Of a stretch of 64,000 nt of DNA, positions 6,326-64,000 are shown in pieces. Both the position numbers and the translations under genes were made by a program. The notes beneath the pieces were generated by a model. It worked only from the letters and a program-made list of their open reading frames with translations, was not told the DNA's origin and ran no database searches. The DNA comes from an uncultured Bacteroidia bacterium (GTDB lineage: Bacteria; Bacteroidota; Bacteroidia; Bacteroidales; F082): assembly GCA_913009755.1 (NCBI GenBank), contig CAJVWU010000008.1, positions 1 to 64,000 on the forward strand. Reading direction: 5' to 3'. The first letter of the stretch is position 1, and each line of letters starts with the position of its first letter.

Positions 6326-8575
6326 GTGGAATCCATTTATTTGTTTTTTATTATCATCCTTATTTTGCTTGCCGTGTCCGACCTCATTGTGGGGGTCAGC
6401 AATGATGCGGTCAACTTTCTGAATGCAGCCATTGGCTCGCGTGTTGCCTCATTCCGTGTAATTATCATTGTGGCTGCAATTGGTATTTTGGTCGGGGCTG
6501 TGTTTTCAAGCGGCATGATGGAAGTGGCACGAAAAGGTATTTTTAATCCCGGGGAATTTTATTTCTCCGAAATCATGATCATTTTCCTGGCCGTAATGGT
6601 AACCGATGTCCTGTTGCTGGATGCATTCAATACCATCGGACTGCCCACATCAACCACTGTATCCATTGTCTTCGAATTGTTGGGTGCAGCGGTGGGCATG
6701 GCAACCATAAAATTGCTTCAAAGTGATGGGGGATTGACTATCGGGCAGTTTATCAACTCATCCAAAGCCCTGGCAATCATTACGGGTATTTTGTTGTCGG
6801 TGGGGATTGCCTTTACCGTGGGTGCATTAATTCAGTATTTTATCAGGATCGCATTCTCCTTTAATTTCAAGAAACGGATTAAATACCTGGGTGCCCTCTG
6901 GGGAGGGATTGCTTTTGCGGCCATGACTTATTTTATGCTGATCAAAGGAGCCAAAGGGGCATCGTTCATGTCGGAAGAAACCAAAGAATGGATCAGCATG
7001 AACAGTGGCATGATTATCCTCTTTAGCTGGATTGGCTGGACAGCTTTGCTTCAACTTTTAATCTGGTTAACCCGTTTAAATATCCTGAAAGTGATTGTCC
7101 TGGTTGGTACTTTTGCCCTGGCTATGGCCTTTGCCGGCAACGACCTGGTCAACTTTATCGGCGTGCCCATTGCCGGTTATAATTCTTACGAAATTTTTAT
7201 GGCTAACCCCGGTGCCGATCCGGGAAACTTTTTAATGAACGGGCTGGCCGGTAAAGTACCGACACCCACACTTTTTCTTGTGATTGCAGGGTTGATCATG
7301 GTACTCACCCTGTTTATTTCCACCAAGGCAAGGTCTGTTGTTCAGACTTCCCTCGATCTTGGCCGTCAGGATGAAGGTGACGAAAGGTTTAAATCAACAT
7401 GGATATCAAAGGTGCTGGTAAGGTCTTCCATGAATGTTTCCACAAATATAAAAAAGGTGTTGCCTTCCGGATTCGTCAGCGTGATTGAAAAACAATTTGA
7501 ACCCTACAAAGGAAAAGAACATTTAAAGAAGAAAGACCATCCGGAGTTTGACCTTATCAGAGCCTCGGTCATACTTACCGTATCCAGTATCCTGATTGCC
7601 CTTGGGACATCTTTAACATTACCCTTATCAACAACTTATGTAACTTTTATGGTGGCAATGGGTGCTTCATTGTCAGATAAAGCATGGGACAGGGAGAGTG
7701 CCGTTTACAGGATATCGGGTGTGTTTGCTGTTATCGGAGGATGGTTTATTACAGCCCTCACAGCCTTTACCGCTGCCTTTATCGTTGTTTATCTCTTTTA
7801 CTATACGGGAATAATCGGTATTGCACTTATGCTTGTTATCGTTGCCTATATGATTTATCGCACTTATGGCATTCATAAAAAAGTAAAACGGGAAAAAGAA
7901 GAAGAAGCGAACGAAGTGGATACCATCTCCGAAGAGAACATTGCCGAAAAGTCAACCCGGACTATCGTTAAAAATCTGAAAATAATTGTTTCCGAATATG
8001 GAAGGACTATTGACGGCCTGGAAAAAGAAAATGTTAAAGAGCTGAGAAAAGCAAAAAAAGATATAGAAAAGATTACGGCTAAGACAAAATATATGAAAGA
8101 TCATATCAATGTGATCGTAGAGAAACTGCGTGAGGATTCCATGGATACGGCCTATTATTTTGTTCAGGTGCTCGATTACCTGCGGGAGATGCTCCACAGT
8201 ATTTCATTTATTCTCGGGCCGGCCCTTAATCATGTTGACAATAATCATAAGCCATTGATCAAAGAGCAAATAGATGAATTGAGACAACTTCATTCATCAC
8301 TCGCGGAAATGGTCAATTTGATTGCCAACAGTATGGAATCAGGTGATTACAGTAAACAGGAAGATTTGCAGAAAATGCAGAAAAACATCCTCGAATTGAT
8401 TGCCACGATGAACAGGAATATGATCAAACGGCTCAAAAAAGCCGAAGTAGGTACCAAGAACAGCATGCTCTTTTTTAATATACTGAACGAGACGAAAAAC
8501 CTCGCCCTTCAGGCAGTAAACCTTTACAAGTCGCAACGCGATTTCGTCAACTTTAAAAACGGAAACTCTTTGTGA
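6326..8575 (+). CDS. Inorganic phosphate transporter, Pit family, with C-terminal PhoU-like domain
   Basis: A 749-residue membrane protein that imports phosphate by ion symport. The signature GVSNDAVNFLNAAIGSRVAS near the N-terminus and its internal repeat GNDLVNFIGVPIAGYNSY are Pit/PHO-4 hallmarks. Ten or more hydrophobic segments run to about residue 510. A charged, helical ~220-residue tail (KYMKDHINVIVEKLREDS, QVLDYLREMLHSI) then resembles PhoU/DUF47 helical bundles and suggests built-in phosphate-responsive control. Translation starts at GTG; no in-frame ATG fits the N-terminus better. Its stop overlaps the next gene as GTGA, implying coupling. Confidence 0.93.
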   Translation: MESIYLFFIIILILLAVSDLIVGVSNDAVNFLNAAIGSRVASFRVIIIVAAIGILVGAVFSSGMMEVARKGIFNPGEFYFSEIMIIFLAVMVTDVLLLDAFNTIGLPTSTTVSIVFELLGAAVGMATIKLLQSDGGLTIGQFINSSKALAIITGILLSVGIAFTVGALIQYFIRIAFSFNFKKRIKYLGALWGGIAFAAMTYFMLIKGAKGASFMSEETKEWISMNSGMIILFSWIGWTALLQLLIWLTRLNILKVIVLVGTFALAMAFAGNDLVNFIGVPIAGYNSYEIFMANPGADPGNFLMNGLAGKVPTPTLFLVIAGLIMVLTLFISTKARSVVQTSLDLGRQDEGDERFKSTWISKVLVRSSMNVSTNIKKVLPSGFVSVIEKQFEPYKGKEHLKKKDHPEFDLIRASVILTVSSILIALGTSLTLPLSTTYVTFMVAMGASLSDKAWDRESAVYRISGVFAVIGGWFITALTAFTAAFIVVYLFYYTGIIGIALMLVIVAYMIYRTYGIHKKVKREKEEEANEVDTISEENIAEKSTRTIVKNLKIIVSEYGRTIDGLEKENVKELRKAKKDIEKITAKTKYMKDHINVIVEKLREDSMDTAYYFVQVLDYLREMLHSISFILGPALNHVDNNHKPLIKEQIDELRQLHSSLAEMVNLIANSMESGDYSKQEDLQKMQKNILELIATMNRNMIKRLKKAEVGTKNSMLFFNILNETKNLALQAVNLYKSQRDFVNFKNGNSL

Positions 8576-9033
8576 GCTATCGGGTTGAAAAGATCATAAG
8601 CGGGGGGCAAACGGGCGTTGACCGGGCTGCCCTTGACTTTGCCATTCAAAACAACATTGCCTGTGGTGGCCGGTGCCCCAAAGGCCGCCTGGCCGAAGAT
8701 GGCAGGATTGATGATAAATATCCCCTGACCGAGACAAATACAACGTTGTATGTTGAGCGGACAAAGCGCAATGTGAAAGAGGGCGACGGGACGTTGATAC
8801 TCTATTCAGGTGAGTTGGGGAACGGTTCTGCATACACTGCCAAATATGCCCGGCAGAAAAAAAAACCATTGCTCGTAATAAGGACAGACGAACCCGATTT
8901 GAAAGAGACGACAGCACGATGGATTGAAAACAATCGGATTAAAGTACTCAACATCGCCGGGCCGCGTGAAAGTACCAGCCCGGGGATTTATAATGAAACG
9001 ATGAAAATATTGGAAATGGTTTTTAAAAAATAA
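8572..9033 (+). CDS. Circularly permuted YpsA-like SLOG family protein (formerly 'putative molybdenum carrier')
   Basis: 153 residues with the motif IISGGQTGVDRAALDFA, then CPKGRLAEDG and TLILYSGELGNGSAYT. These are the nucleotide-binding loops of the SLOG superfamily, in the cpYpsA arrangement. SLOG proteins bind nucleotides or nucleotide-derived ligands; the molybdenum label comes from older structural work and is not supported by anything here. It starts at a GTG overlapping the phosphate transporter stop, so it is probably co-translated with it. A role in phosphate or nucleotide sensing is only a guess. Confidence 0.8.
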   Translation: MSYRVEKIISGGQTGVDRAALDFAIQNNIACGGRCPKGRLAEDGRIDDKYPLTETNTTLYVERTKRNVKEGDGTLILYSGELGNGSAYTAKYARQKKKPLLVIRTDEPDLKETTARWIENNRIKVLNIAGPRESTSPGIYNETMKILEMVFKK

Positions 9034-9037
9034 TCTT

Positions 9038-9163
9038 ATCCTCGTTTGCAGCGAGGATGCTTTATTCGATCATTTGCAATGCTTACTTTGCTGTTTTGTT
9101 TTACTTGTTTAAACTGCATTCCAAATGCAGCAGGGAAACCCGTCCTCGTTGCAAACGAGGACG
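9038..9163. repeat. REP-like palindromic unit
   Basis: Three hairpins lie in 126 bp: ATCCTCG/CGAGGAT arms around 9038-9058, CTGCATT/AATGCAG at 9114-9130, and a near-perfect CGTCCTCGTT/AACGAGGACG palindrome with a 3-nt GCA loop at 9141-9163. The first and last share CCTCGTT-GCA. It fills the gap between convergent genes and could also stop transcription. The arrangement is typical of REP elements moved by RAYT transposases, but no RAYT gene is in the window. Confidence 0.55.
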
Positions 9164-9185
9164 GAATGGTGCCTATAATAGTAGA

Positions 9186-11459
9186 TTACTTCCCTGAAAC
9201 CATAACCTTCTTTTCGTCGCTGAAGTTTCCCGCTGTAATCCGGTAAAAATAAATACCGTCACTAACATTTCCTGCATTCCAGGAAACAGAATATTTCCCG
9301 GCAGATTTTTGTTCGTCAACCAGGGTGGCTATCAACTGCCCGGTGATGTTGTAAACTTTTAGCGTGACATGAGCGGTTTGCGGGAGGTTATATTGTATTG
9401 TGGTTGCCGTGTTAAAGGGATTGGGGTAATTCTGTGATAAATCAACTGTTCCGGGATTTGGTTCGTTTTCATCAATGCCTGTAATCAAGTCATTCTGAAA
9501 AATATACATTCCGTCATAGTAATCCGCCACATAAATGTAATTATCGCTAATGTAAACACCCACTGCAGAACTCCCTGTATCAAACAAACCAACTTCGGCT
9601 GGTGCTGCCGGGTTGCTCACATCAATTATGCGTAAACCACCATGCGCATTAGCCAAATAAGCGTATTTACCACTGACGTAAACATTCGCTGCAGAGTTTT
9701 CCGTATCAAAAAAACCAATTTCCACCGGTGTTTCCGGATGGCTCACATCTATGATGCGTAAACCATCACTTTTATCCGCCACATAAGCGTAATTGCCGTT
9801 GATGAAAACACCCAATGCGTAACTCTCCGTATCAAAAAAACCGACTTCGGTTGGTGCTGTAGGATCGCTCACATCTATGATACGTAAACCATCATCCCAA
9901 TCCGCCACATAAGCGTAATTGCCGACAACTTCAACATTTAATGCAACACTTCCCGTATTAAAAAACCCGACTTCGGTTGGTGCTGTAGGATCGCTCACAT
10001 CTATGATACGTAAGCCATCATTACCATCCGCCACATAAGCGTATTTACCGCTGACATAAACACCTTGTGCGGCATTCTCCGTATCAAAAAGACCAACTTC
10101 GGTCGGTGCTGTAGGATCACTCACATCTATGATACGCAAACCAGCAACGCCATTTGCCACATAAGCGTAATTACCGACGATGTAAACATCCCTTGCAGAA
10201 CTTTCCATTTCAAAAAAACCTACTTCGGTCGGTGCTGCCGGATTGCTCACATCTATTATGCGTAAACCATCATACCAGTCCGCTACATAAGCGTAATTGC
10301 CGACGACGTAAATATCATCTGTAATACTCCCCGTATCAAAAAAGCCGGCTTCCGCCGGTGCTGCCGGGTTGCTCACGTCTATAACGCGTACGCCATTAAA
10401 ATCATTCGCCACATAAGCGTAATTGCCAATGACGTAAACACTTCTTGTATAAGTTCCCATCTCCAAATAACCGGATTCAGACGGCGCTGCCGGGTCGCTC
10501 ACATCTATTATGCTTAAACCATCAGTCCAGGTCGTCACATAAGCGTAATTGCCGAGGACGTAAACGCCGCTTGCATAATATATTGCATCAAAAAAACCGG
10601 CTTCGGTTGGCGCTGCCGGATCGCTTACATCTATTATGCGCAAGCCATCAGCGCCGTCTGCCACATAGGCGTAATTGCCGAGGACATGAACACCCCTTGC
10701 AAAACTTTCCGTATCAAAAAAACCGGTTTCGGACGGTGCTGCCGGGTCGCTCACATCAATGATGCGTAAACCATCATACCCATCCGCCACATAAGCGTAA
10801 TTGCCGAGGACGTAAACACTCTTCGCATAACTCCCTGTATTAACAAAACCAACTTCGTCCGGTGCTGCCGGGTCGCTCACATCAATGATGCGTAAACCAT
10901 CATCCCCATTCGCCACATAGGCATAATTGCCATTGACAAAAACACCCTCTGCAAAACTACTCATATCAAAAAATCCAACTTCGTCCGGTGCTGCCGGATT
11001 GCTCACATCAATGATACGTAACCCATCAAAATAATCTGCCACATAAACGTAATTGCCACTGACTGCTATACCGTTAACAAGTGATGGTAAAAGAACTTTG
11101 CTTAGTTCTTGCGGGTTAGCGGGATCCTCAAAATCAACTATTTCAAGATAACCGCCGTTTCCAAAGTAAGCTGTGTTTCCTGTAACACCAACAGCAATGC
11201 AAGGTCCGTTAGCCCATCTGCCCACAAGCGTTACATTGGTGTCTGCCGTTGCAGAACCGTTAATATTTGTGTTTTTTTGTAATGGCCACTGATGCTGTGC
11301 GTTTCTGCTAAATGTGGGAGTTGTGCCCGTTATAATACCCTGACGGGTAAGATCAGCAGAACCCTGCGCCAGGGAACTGTCCATAAAAATTGTCCAGAAT
11401 ATTACAGATATAAAAAGTGTATATACAATGGAACGAATACGATTTTTAAACTTTTTCAT
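9186..11459 (-). CDS. LVIVD-repeat beta-propeller protein with T9SS sorting tail (paralogue 1)
   Basis: A 757-residue secreted protein. The signal peptide ends at SSLAQG. A run of 13 full and one half ~42-residue repeats follows, each with [19 protein letters not shown] and a PAAPxEVGFFDT-type linker. These are LVIVD repeats, which fold into propeller-like blades. The last ~78 residues are a type A T9SS sorting domain ([44 protein letters not shown]). It is therefore exported and anchored or released at the surface; the ligand is unknown. Signal region and tail are almost identical to those of the tandem paralogue upstream, while the repeats differ. Confidence 0.92.
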
Positions 11460-11537
11460 GATGATCTTTTTTTATTTTTAATTTTAATTGATCTGTTTTT
11501 GCTTTAACCGATTTCCATATAAACCAGCAACACTATA

Positions 11538-11602
11538 GCTCAGCGGCACCCTCTCTGTGAGCCGGGAAAAACTCAGGCGATAACCTGACATCCCAACAGA
11601 GG
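11538..11602 (-). other. Structured leader between the two LVIVD genes
   Basis: The 175-bp gap upstream of paralogue 1 holds several complementary arms: GCTCA/TGAGC (11538-11562), GGGA...TCCC enclosing TCAGG/CCTGA (11564-11594), and CTCTGT/ACAGAG (11553-11601). The first and last compete for the same bases, so two folds are possible. I do not recognise it as a known riboswitch. It could be a 5' UTR element, a terminator for paralogue 2 or a decayed palindromic repeat. Confidence 0.35.
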
Positions 11603-11634
11603 CAAACATTCATATAAAAGCCGCGGTACAAAAT

Positions 11635-13929
11635 TTACTTCCCTGAAACCATTACTTTCTTTTCGTCGCTGAAGTTTCCCGCTGTAATCCGGTAAAAATA
11701 AATACCGTCACTTACATTTCCTGCATTCCAGGAAACAGAATATTTCCCGGCAGGTTTTTGTTCGTCAACCAGGGTGGCTATCAACTGCCCGGTGATGTTG
11801 TAAACTTTCAGCGTGACATGAGCGGTTTGCGGGAGGTTATATTGTATTGTGGTTGCCGTGTTAAAGGGATTGGGGTAATTCTGTGATAAATCAACTGTTC
11901 CGGGATTTGGTTCGTTTTCATCAATGCCTGTAATCAAGTCATTCTGAAAAATATACATTCCGTCATAGTAATCTGCCATATAAATGTAATCGTCGCTGAC
12001 GTAAACACCCATTGCAGAACTCGGTGTATCAAAAAAACCAACTTCGGCCGGTGCTGTAGGATCGCTCACATCTATGATACGTAAACCAGTAAGGTTATTC
12101 GCCACATAAGCGTAATCGCCGCTGACGTAAACATCCCATGCAAGATTGTCCGTATCAAAAAAACCAACTTCGGTCGGTGCTTCCGGGTTGCTCACGTCTA
12201 TGATGCGTAAACCATCAATGTAACCCGCCACATAAGCATAATTGCCGAGGACGTAAACACGGTTTGCACGAATTCCCGAATAGAAGAAACCTACTTCGGT
12301 CGGTGTTGCCGGATCACTTACATCTATGATGCGTAAACCATCATCCCAATCCGCCACATAAGCATAATTGCCGACAACAAAAACATTCCTTGCCTCACTC
12401 CCCGTATCAAAAAAACCCACTTCGGCGGGTGCCGCCGGGTTGCTCACATCTATGATACGCATACCGTCGAACGCATCCGCCACATAAGCATAATTACCGA
12501 GGACGAAGACATTCTCCGCCAGACTCCCCGTATCAAAGAAACCCACTTCGGCGGGTGCCGCCGGATTGCTCACATCTATAATGCGTAAGCCGTCATAAGC
12601 ATCCGCCACATAAGCGTAATCGCCGCGAACGAAAACACTCCATGCATAACCTTCCGTATCAAAGGAACCCACTTCGGTTGGCGCTTCCGGGTTGCTCACA
12701 TCAATGATGCGTAAACCATCATACCAATCAGCCACATAAGCATAATTGCCAAGGACGTAAGTACCCATTGCATCACTCCCCGTATCAAAGAAACCGGTTT
12801 CGGTCGGCGCTGCCGGGTTGCTCACATCAATGATGCGTAAACCATCAAAGAAACTCGCTATATAAGCGGAATTGCCGAGGACGTAAACCCCATAAGTCCA
12901 CGGCCCGTCAAATATACTATTCCCCGGATTAAAAAACCCGGTTTCGGTCGGCGTTGCCGGATTGCTCACATCAACGATGTATAAACCACCACCGCCACCA
13001 ACCGCCACATAAGCGTAATTGCCGCTGAGGTAAACACCCCTTGCAAGACTCCCCACATTAAAAAAACCAACTTCGGCGGGTGCTGCCGGGTTGCTCACAT
13101 CAATGATGCGTAAACCATCATACCAATCCGCTACGTAAGCATAATTGCCGCTGACGAAAACACCGAGCGCAAAACTTTCCGTATCAAAGAAACCGGCTTC
13201 GGTAGGCGCTGCCGGATTGCTCACATCAATAATGCGTAAACCATCAAAGTAATCTGCCACATAAGCGTAATTGCCGCTGAGGTAAACATCGTACGCCCAC
13301 ATTCCCGTATCAAAAAAACCAATTTCGGCGGGTGCTGCCGGATTGCTCACATCAATGATGCGTAAACCATCTCCCCCATCCGCCACATAAGCGTAATTGC
13401 CGCTGACGAAAACACCTTTTGCTTCGCTCTCCGTATCAAGAAAACCGACTTCGGCAGGGGCCTCCGGATCGCTCACATCAATGATGCGTAAACCGTCATC
13501 ACCATTTGCCACATAAACGTAATTGCCGCTGATAGCTATATCGTAAATAAGTGACGGTAAAAGAACTTTGCTTAGAAGATCCGGATTAGACGGATCAGTT
13601 ATATCAAGTATTTGAAAATAACCACCGTTCCCGATATAAGCTTTGTTCCCTGAAACACCCACAGCAAAACAAGGCCCGTTGGCCCATCTGCCCACCAGGG
13701 TTACATTGCTGTCTGCCGTTGCGGTACGGTTAATCGTTGCATTTTTTTGTAATGGCCACTGATGCTGTGCGTTTCTGCTAAATGTGGGAGTTGTGCCCGT
13801 TATAATACCCTGACGGGTAAAATCAGCAGAACCCTGCGCCAGGGAACTGTCAATAAAAATTGTCCAAAATATTACAGATATAAAAAGTGTACATACAATG
13901 GAATGAATGACGTCTGTAATTCTTTTCAT
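11635..13929 (-). CDS. LVIVD-repeat beta-propeller protein with T9SS sorting tail (paralogue 2)
   Basis: The tandem partner of the downstream gene, with the same build: signal peptide ([12 protein letters not shown]...SLAQG), 13 full plus one half LVIVD repeats, and a type A T9SS tail differing from paralogue 1 at only one or two residues. The start is set at the ATG giving MKRITDVIH, which aligns with the paralogue's MKKFKNRIR; an upstream ATG would add 29 residues ahead of the signal peptide. One repeat carries a seven-residue insertion ([14 protein letters not shown]). It was probably produced by tandem duplication, with the ends kept alike by recent conversion. Confidence 0.92.
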
Positions 13930-14101
13930 GATGATTTTTTTTTTATTGTTAATTAATTGATTAATATATTTATTATTGAACAGATTTCTATAAAAGTTAA
14001 AGGCCCTGTTTATCAAGTGTTAGCCGTGAGATAATTCCGGAAATTCTTAGATGAATATCTTGCCCGTGTGTCTGATTTACCCGTGAGTATTTTATTTTTT
14101 A

Positions 14102-14121
14102 CAAAAATACAATTATTTTTG
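14102..14121. promoter_or_regulatory. Back-to-back -7 elements of a divergent promoter
   Basis: CAAAAATA, CAAT and TATTTTTG follow each other. Read on either strand this gives TATTTTTG, a perfect TAnnTTTG. One element would drive the AsmA gene (ATG 22 bp downstream) and the other the LVIVD paralogue 2 gene with a ~165-nt leader. Only 4 bp separate the two, so polymerase binding on the two strands should be mutually exclusive. Confidence 0.55.
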
Positions 14122-14143
14122 TTCGGATTATTACCTGAACCAC

Positions 14144-15592
14144 ATGAAAAAACTAAAAAAAATCCTGATCTGGTTTGTCGTCATCCTGGGCATCCTGATC
14201 ATCGGACTTTACGTGACCGCATCGGTCACTGTAAGCCATTTCAAACCACGTCTCGAAAATATCCTGACCGACGAGCTGGGTTATCAGACAAGAATAAACG
14301 GTTCATTGGCTTTGAAACTGCTTCCGGGGGTTAGTTTCGTTATTAACGATCTTAGGATCATCAATAATGAAACTTACCTGGTCCGGATTGAAAAAGCTGA
14401 AATTGCGGTGGATTACAGACAACTTTTTAATTCAGACATTGACATTACCGGTTTGTCGTTGGTAAAGCCTCAGGTTTTTATTGAACACAACACGGATGGA
14501 TCGTTTAATTATGATATACCTGAGCATGCTAAAAACCCCCATCCTGCTAAAAAAGGCCAAAGCCATCAAATTGACATCAGGCATATTTCGATAAAGAATG
14601 GCCGGTTGATTTATTTTGATAATGAACTCGGTGATACCCTGATTGCCAAAGGCATTGATGTTGTTTCAGATGAAATAAATTTTTCCGGAATCCTTGACCG
14701 GATGAATATGAAAAAACTCAGATTTACCGGTTCAATTCATCTCGGTTCTTTGAGGATCAATGAGATGAGGCTGGATTCAATTCAATGGAAAATAGAGGCC
14801 CGTTCGGGAAAAATATCTGTTCAGTCCCGGTCTCCCCGGTTTTTTGAAGGAAAATACAACGGAGTTACAACCATTGATTTCAATACAAAACCTGCACTGG
14901 TCAATATACAAAGCCACATTACCGGTTTGGATATTGGTGAATTCAGGGAGGCGGCACATTTAACCGGTTTGTTTTATGGCAGCCTGAATTATGATATGAA
15001 TCTCACTTTCAGATCGTTCAACTGGAAACAGGCCATGAGCACACTGGATGGTGACCTGATAATAACCGGTCAAAAGATGTTATTGCAAGGCATATCCCTC
15101 AATAGTATTATCCTGAATTATAAAGATTCAAAAGCATTTGATGTGGCAGGCTTTGCTGCTTTATTTATCACAGGCCCTTTCGGTACGGTTTTTACAAAAG
15201 ATATCCGTTTTGGCTATCAACCGGAAAATAATTCCGGTGTTTCGGAGGATATCAGCAGGATAGTTTCCAACTGGACAATTCATAACGGGGTAGCCCGGGC
15301 CCGGGATGTCGCTTTAGTTACCGATAGATACCGCCTGACCATGACCGGACAGATCAACCTTATCGGGGGAAACTATAATGATGTCAAGATCGCACTTATC
15401 AATAAATTCGGTTGCCCGGTCATCAGTTTACAAATGAACGGCCCTTTTCTTTCGCCTGAAAAGGAAAGCAGTTCCAGCATAAGCCCGTCAAACATTTCTA
15501 TGGTTGAATTTTGGAAAGACCTTGCCAATTCAACACGTAAATATTGCAAACCCGTGTATTCCGGTTCGTTAAAACCACCGGTAGCCCACTAA
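14144..15592 (+). CDS. AsmA family protein
   Basis: 482 residues. An N-terminal membrane anchor (KILIWFVVILGILIIGLYVT) is followed by the AsmA signature FKPRLENILTDELGYQTRI and LALKLLPGVSFVINDL. The rest is a beta-rich periplasmic region. AsmA-type proteins are relatives of VPS13/Mdm31 lipid-transfer bridges and affect outer-membrane lipid homeostasis. At 482 residues it is a short member compared with proteobacterial TamB/YhdP. It stands alone, divergent from the LVIVD genes. About 150 bp downstream hold only short CTCCTGCTCCCTGG-type repetitions before ppk2. Confidence 0.82.
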   Translation: MKKLKKILIWFVVILGILIIGLYVTASVTVSHFKPRLENILTDELGYQTRINGSLALKLLPGVSFVINDLRIINNETYLVRIEKAEIAVDYRQLFNSDIDITGLSLVKPQVFIEHNTDGSFNYDIPEHAKNPHPAKKGQSHQIDIRHISIKNGRLIYFDNELGDTLIAKGIDVVSDEINFSGILDRMNMKKLRFTGSIHLGSLRINEMRLDSIQWKIEARSGKISVQSRSPRFFEGKYNGVTTIDFNTKPALVNIQSHITGLDIGEFREAAHLTGLFYGSLNYDMNLTFRSFNWKQAMSTLDGDLIITGQKMLLQGISLNSIILNYKDSKAFDVAGFAALFITGPFGTVFTKDIRFGYQPENNSGVSEDISRIVSNWTIHNGVARARDVALVTDRYRLTMTGQINLIGGNYNDVKIALINKFGCPVISLQMNGPFLSPEKESSSSISPSNISMVEFWKDLANSTRKYCKPVYSGSLKPPVAH

Positions 15593-58264: not shown

Positions 58265-59554
58265 TTATTCAATCTGGCCGTAAAGGTCGAAAAAATCGGC
58301 TTTGGCGATAGTGATATTATAGAATTTGCCTACCTTTAAATTATTTCCTTTCCCAGGGATGAGGACTTCGTTATCCACTTCGGGGGAGTCGAATTCGGTA
58401 CGGCCGATATAATAATCGCCCTCTTTTCGGTCAATAATGGTTTTGAAGGTTTTCCCTTCTTTATCTTTGTTCAATTCAAAAGAAATCTCCTGTTGCAGCA
58501 TCATCAGGCGGTCGGCACGGTCCTGCTTTACTTCTTCCGGAATGTCATCTTTCAGCAGACAGGCCTGGGTATGCTCCTCGGCGGAATAGGTAAAAACACC
58601 GAGCCGGTCGAAGCGATATTTTTTTACAAAGTCCATAAGCTGTTGAAACTCTTCTTCAGTCTCACCGGGATAACCGACAATAAGCGTCGTTCGTAAAGCT
58701 ACATCCGGTACTTCTTTCTTTATTTTCCCGATCAGGGCCATCGTTCCTTTTGAGTCAATCCGGCGATTCATCGAACGCAAAATCCTGTTGCTGATGTGCT
58801 GAAGGGGAATGTCAACGTAGTTGCAGACTTTTGGGGTTTCAGCCATTACTTTCAGCAAATCATCCGGAAATGCATGGGGATAAAGATAATGCAACCTGAT
58901 CCATTCAATGCCGTCCACTTCAGTAATTTGCTCCACCAGGCCGGCCAGTTCACGCTTATGATAGAGGTCAATGCCATAATAGGTCAGGTCCTGGGCAATG
59001 AGCAGCAACTCCTTTACTCCTTGTGAAGCGAGATACTGCGCTTCCGCAATGATTTCTTCCTTTGTTTTTGACTTATGTTTTCCACGAATAAGCGGGATGG
59101 CACAAAAAGAGCAGGTACGATCGCAACCTTCCGATATTTTCAGATAGGCATAATGGCCGGGCGTAGTCAGCTTCCTTTCGCCAACCAACTCTTTTTTATA
59201 GTCAACATGCAGGGCTTTCAGGATTTCAGGAATTTCGTTGACTCCGAAAAAACCGTCCACCTGGTCAATTTCTGCCTGCAAGTCTTTTTTGTATCGCTGC
59301 GACAAACAGCCAGTCACGTAAACTTTTTTCAGGTCGCCGGCTTTTTTGGATTCAACCGCCCGCAGGATGGTATCCACCGATTCCTCCCTGGCATCGTGGA
59401 TAAATCCGCAGGTATTGATGATCACCACATCGGATTTTTCATCCGAATCGTGTACGATACGATAATGATCGCCAAGCTGACCCATCAAAACCTCCGAATC
59501 AACGAGGTTTTTCGAGCAGCCGAGGGTGATGATGTTTATTTTTTGCCGGGGCAT
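58265..59554 (-). CDS. rimO: Ribosomal protein S12 methylthiotransferase RimO
   Basis: 429 residues. It adds a methylthio group to an aspartate of ribosomal protein S12. The N-terminal domain has the cysteines of the second cluster (ITLGCSKNLVDSE, NTCGFIHDAREES, TGCLSQRY). The radical SAM triad is CDRTCSFCAIPLIRGKH. A C-terminal TRAM domain follows (KEGKTFKTIIDRKEGDYYIG). The start MPRQKINIITLGCSK follows a -7 element (TAACTTTG, 59561-59568) by only six bases; the longer in-frame start is upstream of it. It lies ~100 bp after ftsY in a conserved Bacteroidota order. Confidence 0.95.
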   Translation of the reverse strand: MPRQKINIITLGCSKNLVDSEVLMGQLGDHYRIVHDSDEKSDVVIINTCGFIHDAREESVDTILRAVESKKAGDLKKVYVTGCLSQRYKKDLQAEIDQVDGFFGVNEIPEILKALHVDYKKELVGERKLTTPGHYAYLKISEGCDRTCSFCAIPLIRGKHKSKTKEEIIAEAQYLASQGVKELLLIAQDLTYYGIDLYHKRELAGLVEQITEVDGIEWIRLHYLYPHAFPDDLLKVMAETPKVCNYVDIPLQHISNRILRSMNRRIDSKGTMALIGKIKKEVPDVALRTTLIVGYPGETEEEFQQLMDFVKKYRFDRLGVFTYSAEEHTQACLLKDDIPEEVKQDRADRLMMLQQEISFELNKDKEGKTFKTIIDRKEGDYYIGRTEFDSPEVDNEVLIPGKGNNLKVGKFYNITIAKADFFDLYGQIE

Positions 59555-59651
59555 AGTTTCCAAAGTTAAATTAGTTCTCTGTGTCAGACCCACAGCTAAA
59601 GCAGGGGGTAACTGATGCGTTCCATAACTGCATCTCCTGGTAACTGATTTG

Positions 59652-60611
59652 CTAATTAATATGGAACAGGGTTTCAACAAACTCCTTTTTGTTAAAGACC
59701 TGCAAGTCTTCTTTTTGTTCGCCGACGCCGATGTATTTGACCGGGATTTTGAACTGGTCGGAAATACCGATGACCACGCCGCCTTTGGCTGTGCCGTCGA
59801 GCTTAGTCAGGGCGATGGCATTTACGTCGGTAGCCGCTATGAATTGTCTGGCCTGTTCAATGGCATTCTGGCCTGTGGAGGCATCAAGGATAAGTAATAT
59901 TTCATGTGGTGCGTCCGGTATCAGTTTTTGCATTACCCGGTTCACCTTTGAAAGTTCATTCATCAGGTTGACTTTGTTGTGAAGCCGGCCGGCCGTGTCA
60001 ATGATGACCACATCCACATCACGTGAGATGGCCGATTTCAGGGTATCGTAAGCTACCGAAGCCGGATCGGCACCCATGCCCTGGCTGACGATGGGTACGC
60101 CCACACGCTCTGCCCAAATGGTCAACTGATCAACGGCTGCCGCACGAAAAGTATCGGCTGCACCAAGCAGGACTGATTTTCCAACCCTTTTGAAATTGTA
60201 AGCCAGCTTCCCGATGGTGGTTGTTTTTCCCACACCGTTCACGCCTACCACCATAATTACATAAGGTTTTTTATCCGGAGGAAGTTCAAAATCAGTTCCG
60301 TCTTTCGTATTGTTTTCGGCAAAAAGATTTTCGATCTCTTCGCGAAGCATATTGTTCAGTTCATCCGTTCCCAGATATTTATCACGGGCCACACGGGCTT
60401 CAATACGTTCAATGATCTTTAAGGTGGTTTTCACTCCCACATCGGAAGTCACCAATGCTTCTTCGAGGTTATCGAGTACCTCATCATCAATTTTTGATTT
60501 GCCGACAACAGCCTTCGACAATTTTGAGAATACGCTTTGGCGCGTTTTTTCCAACCCTTTATCCAGGTTTTCTTTTTGTTTTTTATTTGAAAATACGGAG
60601 AATATGCCCAT
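59652..60611 (-). CDS. ftsY: Signal recognition particle receptor FtsY
   Basis: 319 residues, the SRP GTPase that docks ribosomes at the membrane. The N-domain helix bundle begins VFSKLSKAVVGKSKID. G motifs: GVNGVGKTTTIGKLA, DTFRAAAVDQL, VVIIDTAGRLHN, LTKLDGTAKGG and the closing loop YIGVGEQKEDLQVF. The acidic A-domain of proteobacterial FtsY is missing, as is common outside that group. It sits between DUF4295 and rimO. Confidence 0.96.
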   Translation of the reverse strand: MGIFSVFSNKKQKENLDKGLEKTRQSVFSKLSKAVVGKSKIDDEVLDNLEEALVTSDVGVKTTLKIIERIEARVARDKYLGTDELNNMLREEIENLFAENNTKDGTDFELPPDKKPYVIMVVGVNGVGKTTTIGKLAYNFKRVGKSVLLGAADTFRAAAVDQLTIWAERVGVPIVSQGMGADPASVAYDTLKSAISRDVDVVIIDTAGRLHNKVNLMNELSKVNRVMQKLIPDAPHEILLILDASTGQNAIEQARQFIAATDVNAIALTKLDGTAKGGVVIGISDQFKIPVKYIGVGEQKEDLQVFNKKEFVETLFHIN

Positions 60612-60813
60612 GTTTGTTCTGTGTTATTTTAGATGATTATTTATTCGATCCCCGCCCTAAAGGACTGGGCAACTGATTTGTTTCAAAATATTATATTTTC
60701 TTCGCTGTTACCCTTCCATCATTCCACCATTCATTCCTTCATCCCACAAAAAAAGCTTTCTCCCATGAACAGGAAAAAGCTTTTCATTCAAGTCAATAAA
60801 TATCTTGGGCCGG

Positions 60814-60966
60814 TTATTTCTTTACGAAATATTCTTTTACCTGGTCTGTCGGGATAATATTTTCTTTAAAGGCGTAAGCACCTGATTTTGGTGATTTAAC
60901 CATCCTGATGACCCTGGCAAAATCTTTTCCTGAACTCTGTAATGTAGCAACTACTTTTTTAGCCAT
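60814..60966 (-). CDS. DUF4295 family small basic protein (Bacteroidota-specific, ribosome-associated)
   Basis: A 50-residue protein beginning MAKKVVATLQSSGKDFARVI and ending DQVKEYFVKK. It belongs to DUF4295, conserved in Bacteroidota between rpmG and ftsY. To my knowledge this family corresponds to an extra large-subunit protein seen in a Bacteroidota ribosome structure (named bL38); I state that from memory. The small size, basic charge and position 8 bp after rpmG support a ribosomal role. Confidence 0.85.
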   Translation of the reverse strand: MAKKVVATLQSSGKDFARVIRMVKSPKSGAYAFKENIIPTDQVKEYFVKK

Positions 60967-60974
60967 GATTCAAA

Positions 60975-61163
60975 TTATTTAATTTCTCGGTGAACAGTCA
61001 TTTTTTTCATGATGGGGTTGTACTTTTTCAGTTCCAACCGTTCAGGTGAATTTTTTTTGTTTTTCGTAGTAATATACCGCGATGTTCCGGGCAATCCACT
61101 GTTTTTGTGCTCAGTACACTCCAGTATCACCTGTATCCTTGCCCCTTTGGTCTTCTTTGCCAT
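60975..61163 (-). CDS. rpmG: 50S ribosomal protein L33 (bL33)
   Basis: 62 residues: [20 protein letters not shown], then [11 protein letters not shown] and [20 protein letters not shown]. The zinc-binding cysteine pairs of the C+ form are absent (only one Cys), so this is the C- type. A consensus promoter and AGGGAG before the ATG are visible. rpmB, which usually precedes it in this phylum, is missing: the gene is the first of its operon here. Confidence 0.95.
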
Positions 61164-61331: not shown

Positions 61332-62312
61332 ATGAAAAGCGAAACACAACAGCAGAAAGTCGTTGAGTATAACAAGGTATTTGATGAAAAAGACTACAAA
61401 AAACGAACGAAGAAAGCCCAGCATGCTACGGATAATTTTTACGACCTCATCACAAAATTCTATGAACGGGGATGGGGAGAATCTTTTCATTTTGCTCCGA
61501 GATATAAGGGCGAAGATTTCAAAGCCAGCATTCTCAGACATGAATATCTGCTGGGAGCGAAACTGGGCCTGACGGAAAAAGACAATGTGCTTGACGTGGG
61601 TTGCGGCATTATGGGTCCGGCCAGGAACCTTGCCCGGATTTCGGGTGCATACATCACGGGACTGACCATCAACCAATACCAGGCGGACAGGGCGAATGTG
61701 CTGAACAACACTTCTTCGGTAAGCCATCTGCTGGACATCAGGCAGGGTGATTTTATGGATATTCCTTTTCCGGATAATACGTTTGATAAAATGTATGCTA
61801 TCGAAGCCCTTTGTCACGCACCCGACCTGGTCGGTGTTTACAAACAAATCCTGAAAAAGCTGAAACCCGGTGGAAAAGCCGCGTTTTACCAGTGGGGGAT
61901 GACCGAGAAATACGATCCGGAAAATTCCGAACACGTCAGGATCAGAGAACAGATCGAGTACGGCAACAGCATTACCAAATTGAGAACTTTAAAAGAGATT
62001 GACAAAGCCATAGAAGAATCCGGACTAATAAAAGAAGAAACTGTTGATCTGGTGCAAACCAATTATGGTAACGATGTGCCCTGGTACAGCACTTTGCAAA
62101 GCGGGTGGTCACTTAAACAGATCAGGCAGACCAAGGGCAGCCGGATGGTGATGAAACAGGTGTTCAAAACGCTGGAAGCTTTAAGGGTAGTGAAAAAAGG
62201 TGTAGTCAAAACCCAGCATATTCTGCTGGTGGCTGCCGATGCGCTTGTGGAAGCCGGAAAACTGGAAATTTTTACGCCGATGTACCTGATGGTGGTGAGG
62301 AAGCAGAAATAG
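61332..62312 (+). CDS. Sterol C-24 methyltransferase-like SAM-dependent methyltransferase (Erg6/SMT family)
   Basis: 326 residues. The SMT blocks occur in order: FYERGWGESFHFAPR (43-57), RHEYLLGAKLGL, the SAM loop LDVGCGIMGPARNLA (87-101), GDFMDIPFPDNTFDKMYAIE, the substrate-region CHAPD (161-165), MTEKYDPENSEH, NDVPWYSTL (247-255), and the SMT C-terminal domain ending ADALVEAGKLEIFTPMYLMV. Yeast Erg6 has the same blocks, including CHAP, PWYYPL and the FTPM end; only its ~50-residue N-terminal extension is missing. The chosen ATG follows a weak -7 (TACCTTTA). It is monocistronic with no squalene or sterol genes nearby; the substrate is unknown. Confidence 0.82.
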   Translation: MKSETQQQKVVEYNKVFDEKDYKKRTKKAQHATDNFYDLITKFYERGWGESFHFAPRYKGEDFKASILRHEYLLGAKLGLTEKDNVLDVGCGIMGPARNLARISGAYITGLTINQYQADRANVLNNTSSVSHLLDIRQGDFMDIPFPDNTFDKMYAIEALCHAPDLVGVYKQILKKLKPGGKAAFYQWGMTEKYDPENSEHVRIREQIEYGNSITKLRTLKEIDKAIEESGLIKEETVDLVQTNYGNDVPWYSTLQSGWSLKQIRQTKGSRMVMKQVFKTLEALRVVKKGVVKTQHILLVAADALVEAGKLEIFTPMYLMVVRKQK

Positions 62313-62361: not shown

Positions 62362-62394
62362 ATACGATTTTGCATTTTAATTGCAAAATCGTAT
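62362..62394. terminator. Strong hairpin downstream of the methyltransferase
   Basis: ATACGATTTTGCA and TGCAAAATCGTAT form a perfect 13-bp stem with a 7-nt loop, followed by AATTTT. It is a probable terminator for the methyltransferase gene. Confidence 0.6.
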
Positions 62395-62584: not shown

Positions 62585-64000
62585 TTATAACGACACCATT
62601 TTCTTTGTATCAGACAGTTGACCATTTACAAATATTGAATAGAAATAAATGCCTGACGGCAAATCGCCCATATCCAATTTTATCTTTGTTAACAGGTTTT
62701 TCATAATATGTCGGATGATAAATATCATAATGATGATAACCATTAGGCGACCATACATCCATATCATCGGCATACGCGAAAGCCTCTTCCATTTGCACAA
62801 ATCCGTCACTATTCAAATCGGGATTATGATCACCTGGATGGTCGCTAAACGGATAATATTGATCAAATGGAAATAAACCAGGTTCATAGTCATAGGTTTT
62901 TCAAGGCTCATCAAAAATAGGATATCCTTTTCTTGCGGCAGCAGTCCAGTAAAACGAATATTCTGCGTAGCGTAGGTTAGTCATATAAATTTCGGCAGTA
63001 GCATATAAATCGTCAGATGTTGCAGTATGCACCGAGCGATTTTTACAAATTGCGGTGTAATTGTCATAATCGGTTAATTCAGTAGCAAAATTGCCAGAAA
63101 AACAGGGCTGTATTAAAAACAACATTTGTGCGCAATTAATATTTTCAACGTGTTGGGCAAGTTCATTATCATATAAATAATCGTATTGTTGTTGATTGGG
63201 ATCGGGCTTGACACATCCTAAAGTAGAATGATTGTTAATATTTTTCCCTTGTCCGTCAATAAATACAAAAAGTTGGTCGCTCGGCGTAAGTGCAGGAATA
63301 TTCGGGTCGGAATTGCTGGTGCCGGCCAAATTATCAAAAGTTTCCAAAATACGTGACTTGGAAGCGTTATAATCAATGTCGTTTGATGGAAAATCAGGTC
63401 CATCTAAATCATTTCCTGATTTTGGGCTTGTGCCGTCGTAATAATGCACATAAATATTATCTTTACTGTACCCGTAAACATTTACAAGCGTACAAAACAT
63501 GGCGGAAGCGTCATCCCAAAAAAAGTTATGATATTCTTGATGTGGATTAAGCACCGCGTCTTCGGAAACAATTATTACCGCATACAAATGATCGTTAACG
63601 GTAATCGAACTTGTTTGTGTATTTTGGTTGGGAGGCATGTTGGCAGAAGGATAGCGATAAATCTGTTTAACTAAATCAAAATCAACACTATCGGCTGTGC
63701 CAAAAGCGAAAGGATAAAAATCTTCATCCGTTATTTGAAAATTGCCGGTAATGGTATCCATAAAAATATAACGACAATCGTGTGCCCAACCTGAATTGGG
63801 ATGGTCGTCAACCATTTCGCCGAGATAAAATGATTTTCTATAATAGTTTCCTCCATCGGTGGAGATGATATATAAGCTATAGGAAGAGTATAGAATATCC
63901 GGATAGGTGTTATTAAAAACAGTATCAACAAATAGATTCCGGTTAGAGCCAAGAAAGTCTTTGTTAATAGAATCCATATAGGTAAAATAACCTTTTCCAT
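62585..64000 (-). pseudogene. Broken T9SS-secreted C13/caspase-like cysteine peptidase gene (5' end beyond window)
   Basis: The gene enters from the right edge and is open to a TGA at 62901-62903. YAVIIVSEDAVLNPHQ, YGYSKDNIYVHYYDG, FVFIDGQGKNINNH and LIQPCFSGNF resemble legumain-type (C13) peptidases: the last holds the nucleophile cysteine, but the catalytic DHG is DGQG. After the TGA the same frame continues (KTYDYEPG, LNSDGFVQMEEAFAY) to about YEKPVN, then jumps frame into KIKLDMGDLPSGIYFYSI, the end of a T9SS tail whose first half is missing. One nonsense change plus a deletion/frameshift make it a pseudogene, unless these are assembly errors. Confidence 0.72.

Follow-up and report, generated by a model that had tools for sequence, protein, structure and literature searches.

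A putative sterol C-24 methyltransferase and a cycloartenol-type cyclase encoded in the genome of an uncultured Bacteroidales bacterium

Described sterol methyltransferases and the focal genome

The sterol C-24 methyltransferase (SMT) of plants, SMT1, is the cycloartenol C-24 methyltransferase (EC 2.1.1.41). C-24-alkylated steranes are taken to indicate eukaryotes, and undemethylated triterpenols are seen as remnants of early sterol pathways. It has been reported that 24 bacterial SMTs were assayed in vitro, most of which were active on sterol side chains (Brown et al. 2023, PMC10070321); the substrates given there are desmosterol and 24-methylenecholesterol, not cycloartenol, and no SMT from Bacteroidota is named in the text consulted. 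Sterol gene clusters, often flanked by SMT genes, were described in 2022 in MAGs of Ircinia sponge symbionts from ten phyla, including Rhodothermia of the Bacteroidota (PMC9531527). The view of the first-pass annotation that there are few bacterial examples is thus outdated. In Fluviicola taffensis (Bacteroidetes), cycloartenol was the only product and there were no downstream genes (Wei et al. 2016, PMC4919349). Bsr, a homologue of geranylgeranyl reductase (GGR), was reported to be a bacterial sterol C-24 reductase (PMC12004948).

The DNA analysed here, called the window, is a stretch of 64,000 nucleotides from contig CAJVWU010000008.1 of an uncultured Bacteroidia bacterium (GCA_913009755.1; Bacteroidales, F082). 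It carries an SMT gene, and genome-wide profile searches located clustered genes for squalene synthase, squalene epoxidase and oxidosqualene cyclase on another contig of the genome, C20. Like the SMTs of Brown et al. (PMC10070321), the focal protein is full-length with a methyltransferase domain and a PF08498 domain; theirs often occur with a bacterial oxidosqualene cyclase, and many of their clusters contain genes for C-4/C-14 demethylation, whereas none was found in the focal genome, whose cyclase is of the cycloartenol type. In the Ircinia-symbiont clusters (PMC9531527), a lanosterol synthase is accompanied by ERG24 and CYP51; in the focal genome the cyclase is of the cycloartenol type, and neither ERG24 nor CYP51 was detected. 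F. taffensis (PMC4919349) is similar in having squalene epoxidase and a cycloartenol-type cyclase but no demethylation genes, and differs in that the focal genome has an SMT and a GGR-like flavoprotein besides. As with Bsr (PMC12004948), the flavoprotein adjoining the focal cyclase belongs to the GGR superfamily. The focal SMT is 42% identical to an Arabidopsis SMT1 reference sequence and its predicted substrate is the same, since cycloartenol is the predicted product of the cyclase; unlike plant SMT1, it is encoded by a bacterial gene, is accompanied by no detected downstream plant sterol enzymes and falls into a separate clade in a small tree. Bacterial SMTs, SMT-flanked sterol clusters of Bacteroidota and cycloartenol in one Bacteroidetes species were already known. 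What appears to be new is the combination, in this lineage, of an SMT with a cycloartenol-type cyclase without detected demethylation genes, of which no description was found in the literature searched, where few subscription papers were covered.

The methyltransferase gene and the sterol gene cluster

Open-reading-frame analysis gave a frame of 326 aa at 61332-62312 on the forward strand of the window, starting at ATG, with an alternative in-frame TTG 48 nt upstream. Two Pfam domains were matched, PF08241 (methyltransferase) on residues 87-185 (E=3.9e-18) and PF08498 (Sterol_MT_C) on residues 264-324 (E=2.4e-20; 72.8 bits, cut-off 21.7), so the profile check proposed by the first-pass annotation came out positive. 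In the genome profile search, the latter domain (62121-62303, forward strand, contig C8, E=8.7e-21) was the single PF08498 match in the focal genome, and 0 of 14 control genomes had one. The SMT blocks FYERGWGESFHFAPR, VLDVGCGIMGP, EALCHAPD, NDVPWY and EIFTPM occur in this order. Block I, YERGWGESFHFAPR (residues 44-57; 61461-61502), matches Y81, E82 and H90 of yeast Erg6 in the alignment; the SAM-binding motif VLDVGCGIMGPARN (residues 86-99; 61587-61628) lies within the PF08241 match region; and EALCHAPD (residues 158-165; 61803-61826) matches Erg6 E195 and C198, all three on the forward strand. The reference copies of Erg6 and Arabidopsis SMT1 in this alignment, and the set of key Erg6 residues, serve as a guide only, and the Erg6 copy (380 residues) may contain small errors. 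All eight Erg6-aligned residues Y81, E82, H90, D125, E195, C198, E246 and D276 of this reference are conserved, and identity to the two reference proteins is 41-42%. AlphaFold2 predicted one full-length fold with confidence (mean pLDDT 85.9, pTM 0.86), in which the C-terminal helices and the last strand are folded. The frame is not a chance one, because three other Bacteroidota MAGs encode relatives that are 88, 66 and 62% identical to it. By its domains and conserved residues, the window ORF is confirmed as a sterol C-24 methyltransferase homologue with putative activity, and the earlier description of a full-length homologue with all signature blocks stands.

The first-pass annotation had seen no sterol gene, which is correct for the window. 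For the genome it is not, since the genome-wide search that it suggested found the cluster on C20 (locus L019). This cluster contains squalene epoxidase (L019 7035-8456, reverse strand; PF08491, E=3.9e-74), squalene synthase (8526-9659, reverse; TIGR01559, E=6.8e-129, 429.9 bits, cut-off 286.75), a GGR-like (geranylgeranyl-reductase-like) flavoprotein assigned by superfamily similarity (9901-11187, forward; TIGR02032, E=1.3e-10, under the cut-off) and oxidosqualene cyclase (11165-13462, forward). Next come two reverse-strand genes, at 13463-14443 and 14540-15487, which encode a polyprenyl diphosphate synthase and a mevalonate-kinase-like GHMP kinase, respectively. A second PF00494 match, on contig C48, was weak, spanned 27 positions and was set aside. 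The top PDB match of the cyclase is human lanosterol synthase (E=2.9e-214, against 3e-39 for hopene cyclase), with 47% identity over 661 columns, and its TDCTGEG motif is of the DCTxE type that replaces the DXDD of hopene cyclases. It also carries Y381, H449 and I453 (human numbering, by alignment), the triplet that marks cycloartenol synthase, I453 showing complete correlation with cycloartenol production among the bacteria tested (Wei et al. 2016, PMC4919349). A hopene cyclase was ruled out by the DCTxE motif, the Y/H/I residues and the PDB ranking, and the enzyme is assigned to the cycloartenol type, with cycloartenol as its predicted product. These genes, with their domains and diagnostic residues, are observed together in one genome. 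Since the SMT gene and the cluster lie on separate contigs, no operon links them.

It is fairly likely that the bacterium's own genome encodes a short sterol pathway of plant-like type in which the SMT acts as the tailoring enzyme. In such a pathway, squalene synthase would form squalene, squalene epoxidase would convert it with O2 to 2,3-oxidosqualene, and the cyclase would turn the latter into cycloartenol. The SMT, as the final or penultimate step, would then move the methyl group of SAM, held at its DVGCGIMGP site, onto C-24 of the delta-24 side chain of cycloartenol to give 24-methylenecycloartanol. By the accepted SMT mechanism, the C-24 alkene would attack the methyl group, the cation would pass to C-25 via a hydride shift, and loss of a C-28 proton would leave a 24(28)-methylene group. 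A possible role for the GGR-like flavoprotein encoded next to the cyclase, suggested by the example of Bsr, is side-chain reduction. In this scheme, what each enzyme does, its substrate, the order of the steps and the final product are predicted from gene content, and on that prediction the bacterium probably produces a methylated sterol of the plant, fungal or algal kind. If this is true, 24-alkylated cycloartanes would have a source outside the eukaryotes, and a complete sterol pathway would not be required for alkylation.

Each downstream step absent from the scheme was searched for with one family model, which an unrelated demethylase would escape. No P450 was found in the focal genome at E<=1 (PF00067 search), and hence no CYP51. 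For ERG24 (PF01222), the best match in the genome reached 21.2 bits, under the cut-off of 27; this match, on contig C50, was rejected as ERG24, the protein being DUF1295/steroid-dehydrogenase-like. A KshA-type Rieske oxygenase was not found in the focal genome either, the one resemblance being weak, partial and within a 646-aa frame. Since no C-14 demethylase was found, the ring methyls are probably retained.

Relatives, history of the two loci and alternative substrates

Of 396 sampled genomes of the phylum, 10 had a PF08498 match; the counts were 1 out of 295 for the order and 2 out of 173 for the family, the latter two both from the focal genus. The divergent MAG G687 (locus L003) has an SMT at 66% identity and a sterol cluster of the same order as in the focal genome (SE-SQS-OSC-IDS; 48-54% identity), its cyclase carrying the same Y/H/I triplet. 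It also has a KshA-type Rieske oxygenase, and its cluster contains no homologue of the GGR-like gene. In G688 (locus L004; SMT 62%), a Rieske oxygenase (PF19298 KshA_C, E=3.3e-28) lies 9 bp 3' of the SMT gene, and a cyclase was searched for and not found. This region, with a divergent TetR gene (L004:1733-4523), resembles a small sterol-modification operon. In an unrooted tree of 14 SMT-type sequences, the focal SMT and those of L002 (a MAG contig described below), L003 and L004 form one clade (support 100/100), separate from two clades of distant Bacteroidota, and the two eukaryotic reference sequences lie between them on long branches that affect their placement. The label "eukaryote-like" given to the gene earlier agrees with its sequence identity to the yeast and plant reference enzymes, but this small unrooted tree does not reveal whether the focal SMT descends from eukaryotes.

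In three distant Bacteroidota genomes (G393, G302 and G271), the SMT adjoins a fused squalene epoxidase-oxidosqualene cyclase, and these genomes resemble the Ircinia-symbiont clusters (PMC9531527) in having an SMT beside sterol genes in Bacteroidota. The fused proteins are 1139-1176 aa long (L028:9148-12567, reverse; L029:7467-10958, forward; L030:7673-11200, forward) and come from families f39 and f53. Both domains were identified by Pfam in L028 and by BLAST in L029 and L030, and A/H/V occupy positions 381/449/453 of the cyclases. The fusion is a possible candidate for a substrate-channelling enzyme, and no description of it was found in the literature searched. Beyond the fused cyclase of G393 (L028:12564-17316), a P450, an ERG24-type reductase, a Rieske oxygenase and a 3-beta-HSD-like protein make up a complete-looking sterol cluster. 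The SMT frames of G271 are broken or partial (L033:9740-10213 and L030:11460-12269), which may reflect sequencing errors or decaying copies. Compared with these distant clusters, the focal arrangement is shorter and different.

The closest comparison is with a MAG of the same genus (G716/G686, 92% complete), which carries the SMT gene at the same site as the focal genome and in which a cyclase was searched for and not found. In its menaquinone locus, sfsA lies between menB and menD and encodes an intact SfsA of 230 aa (L052:5437-6129), whereas the focal locus has menB, a 73-aa sfsA remnant (L019:6596-6817) whose N-terminus is fused to the C-terminus by an internal deletion, the sterol cluster and menD. 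The flanks are 96% (menB), 75% (menA) and 72% (menF) identical to those of the same-genus genome. With an intact gene in one genome and a remnant plus cluster in the other, the cluster was probably inserted later. The most economical history is that it entered a focal lineage that already had the SMT beside ftsY; a loss of the cluster accompanied by sfsA repair is less likely. No convincing inverted or direct repeats were found as insertion marks around the cluster. Since the GC content of the cluster is like that of its flanks, the insertion was not necessarily recent, or the donor was of similar composition. SMT genes with and without the cluster in the same genus, at an insertion scar, offer a natural experiment on a borrowed-sterol origin of bacterial SMTs.

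The SMT genes of G716/G686 and G688, in which no cyclase was found, indicate that the cluster is not required for an SMT in every genome, and the enzyme may additionally act on acquired sterols. The same two cases, namely the SMT at the same place beside an undisturbed menaquinone locus and the SMT in tandem with a KshA-type steroid Rieske oxygenase, also favour an explanation in which the focal SMT acts mainly on sterols from eukaryotes or debris and the C20 cluster is a separate, later acquisition. A precedent is a Chlamydiae MAG that has an active SMT but lacks all further sterol genes, and for whose SMT uptake of sterols has been proposed (PMC10070321). However, the focal genome and G687 each carry a complete route to a delta-24 sterol, and the MAGs lacking a cyclase may be incomplete: G688 was not rated, and absence from G716/G686 is no proof at 92% completeness. 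We regard this explanation as rather unlikely. The sterol genes on C20 make it more likely that the bacterium produces the substrate itself than that the enzyme uses acquired sterols alone or an unrelated alkene, two of the options that the first-pass annotation had considered. For the preferred pathway, the most specific version, de novo formation of 24-methylenecycloartanol as the end product by a later-inserted cyclase cluster joined to an older stand-alone SMT, is offered tentatively, with its chances put somewhat below even; on this version, alkylation of the side chain would not depend on ring demethylation in the lineage.

Still less probable is a different position or substrate for this SMT-family enzyme, such as methylation of ring C-4 or of a carbon in a polyprenyl alkene that is not a sterol. 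A sterol methyltransferase acting at C4 has been reported from nematodes (PMC6997595). The closest PDB folds of the SMT model are RebM-like and geranyl-diphosphate C-methyltransferases, class I enzymes acting on small molecules, and Erg6 D152 is replaced by Q in the focal protein. Since no solved SMT structure is among the PDB matches listed, this fold search cannot separate SMTs from other methyltransferases, and D152 lies at a position that is also variable in other SMTs in the alignment. Among the NCBIfam models matching the protein there was no SMT model, and the other methyltransferase models all scored far under their cut-offs. In contrast, the PF08498 domain is intact and absent from the control genomes, the remaining Erg6 residues tested are conserved, and the same genome encodes the synthesis of a likely delta-24 sterol substrate. 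C-24 methylation of a sterol side chain is therefore the preferred predicted activity.

Genomic neighbourhood of the SMT gene

The SMT gene forms a transcription unit of its own, pointing away from rpmG (60975-61163) and ftsY (59652-60611), which lie with rimO (58265-59680) on the reverse strand, as the first-pass annotation had placed them. The conserved divergent segment from ftsY to rpmG (59652-61163, reverse strand) also contains a 50-aa ORF (60814-60966). A candidate terminator of the SMT gene, an inverted repeat with a 13-bp stem followed by a T-rich tail, was found at 62362-62394 (forward strand) in a consensus scan. In L002, a contig of a MAG (JAOZOO010000041.1), ftsY and rimO adjoin the SMT gene too, with 88% identity for SMT and 94% for FtsY; a 3183-bp stretch of this contig is identical in G716, which is listed in the focal genus. 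The SMT is chromosomal by this gene order, and the earlier argument against contamination is borne out by the L002 synteny and by the neighbours of both loci. Contamination during assembly or binning, eukaryotic or bacterial, is a barely credible source of the SMT or the sterol contig: the draft has 165 contigs, with the SMT and the cluster on different ones, but the flanks of both match one and the same same-genus genome, the SMT-ftsY synteny recurs in an independent MAG, the GC contents of the SMT (0.46) and the cluster (0.44) equal those of their own flanks, and completeness and contamination of the genome are 98.35% and 0.67%. At the end of the window, a reverse-strand frame (62901-63998) that runs past the window end has a weak match to Peptidase_C13 (PF01650, E=2.6e-4, slightly under the cut-off), a family of legumain/caspase-like fold.
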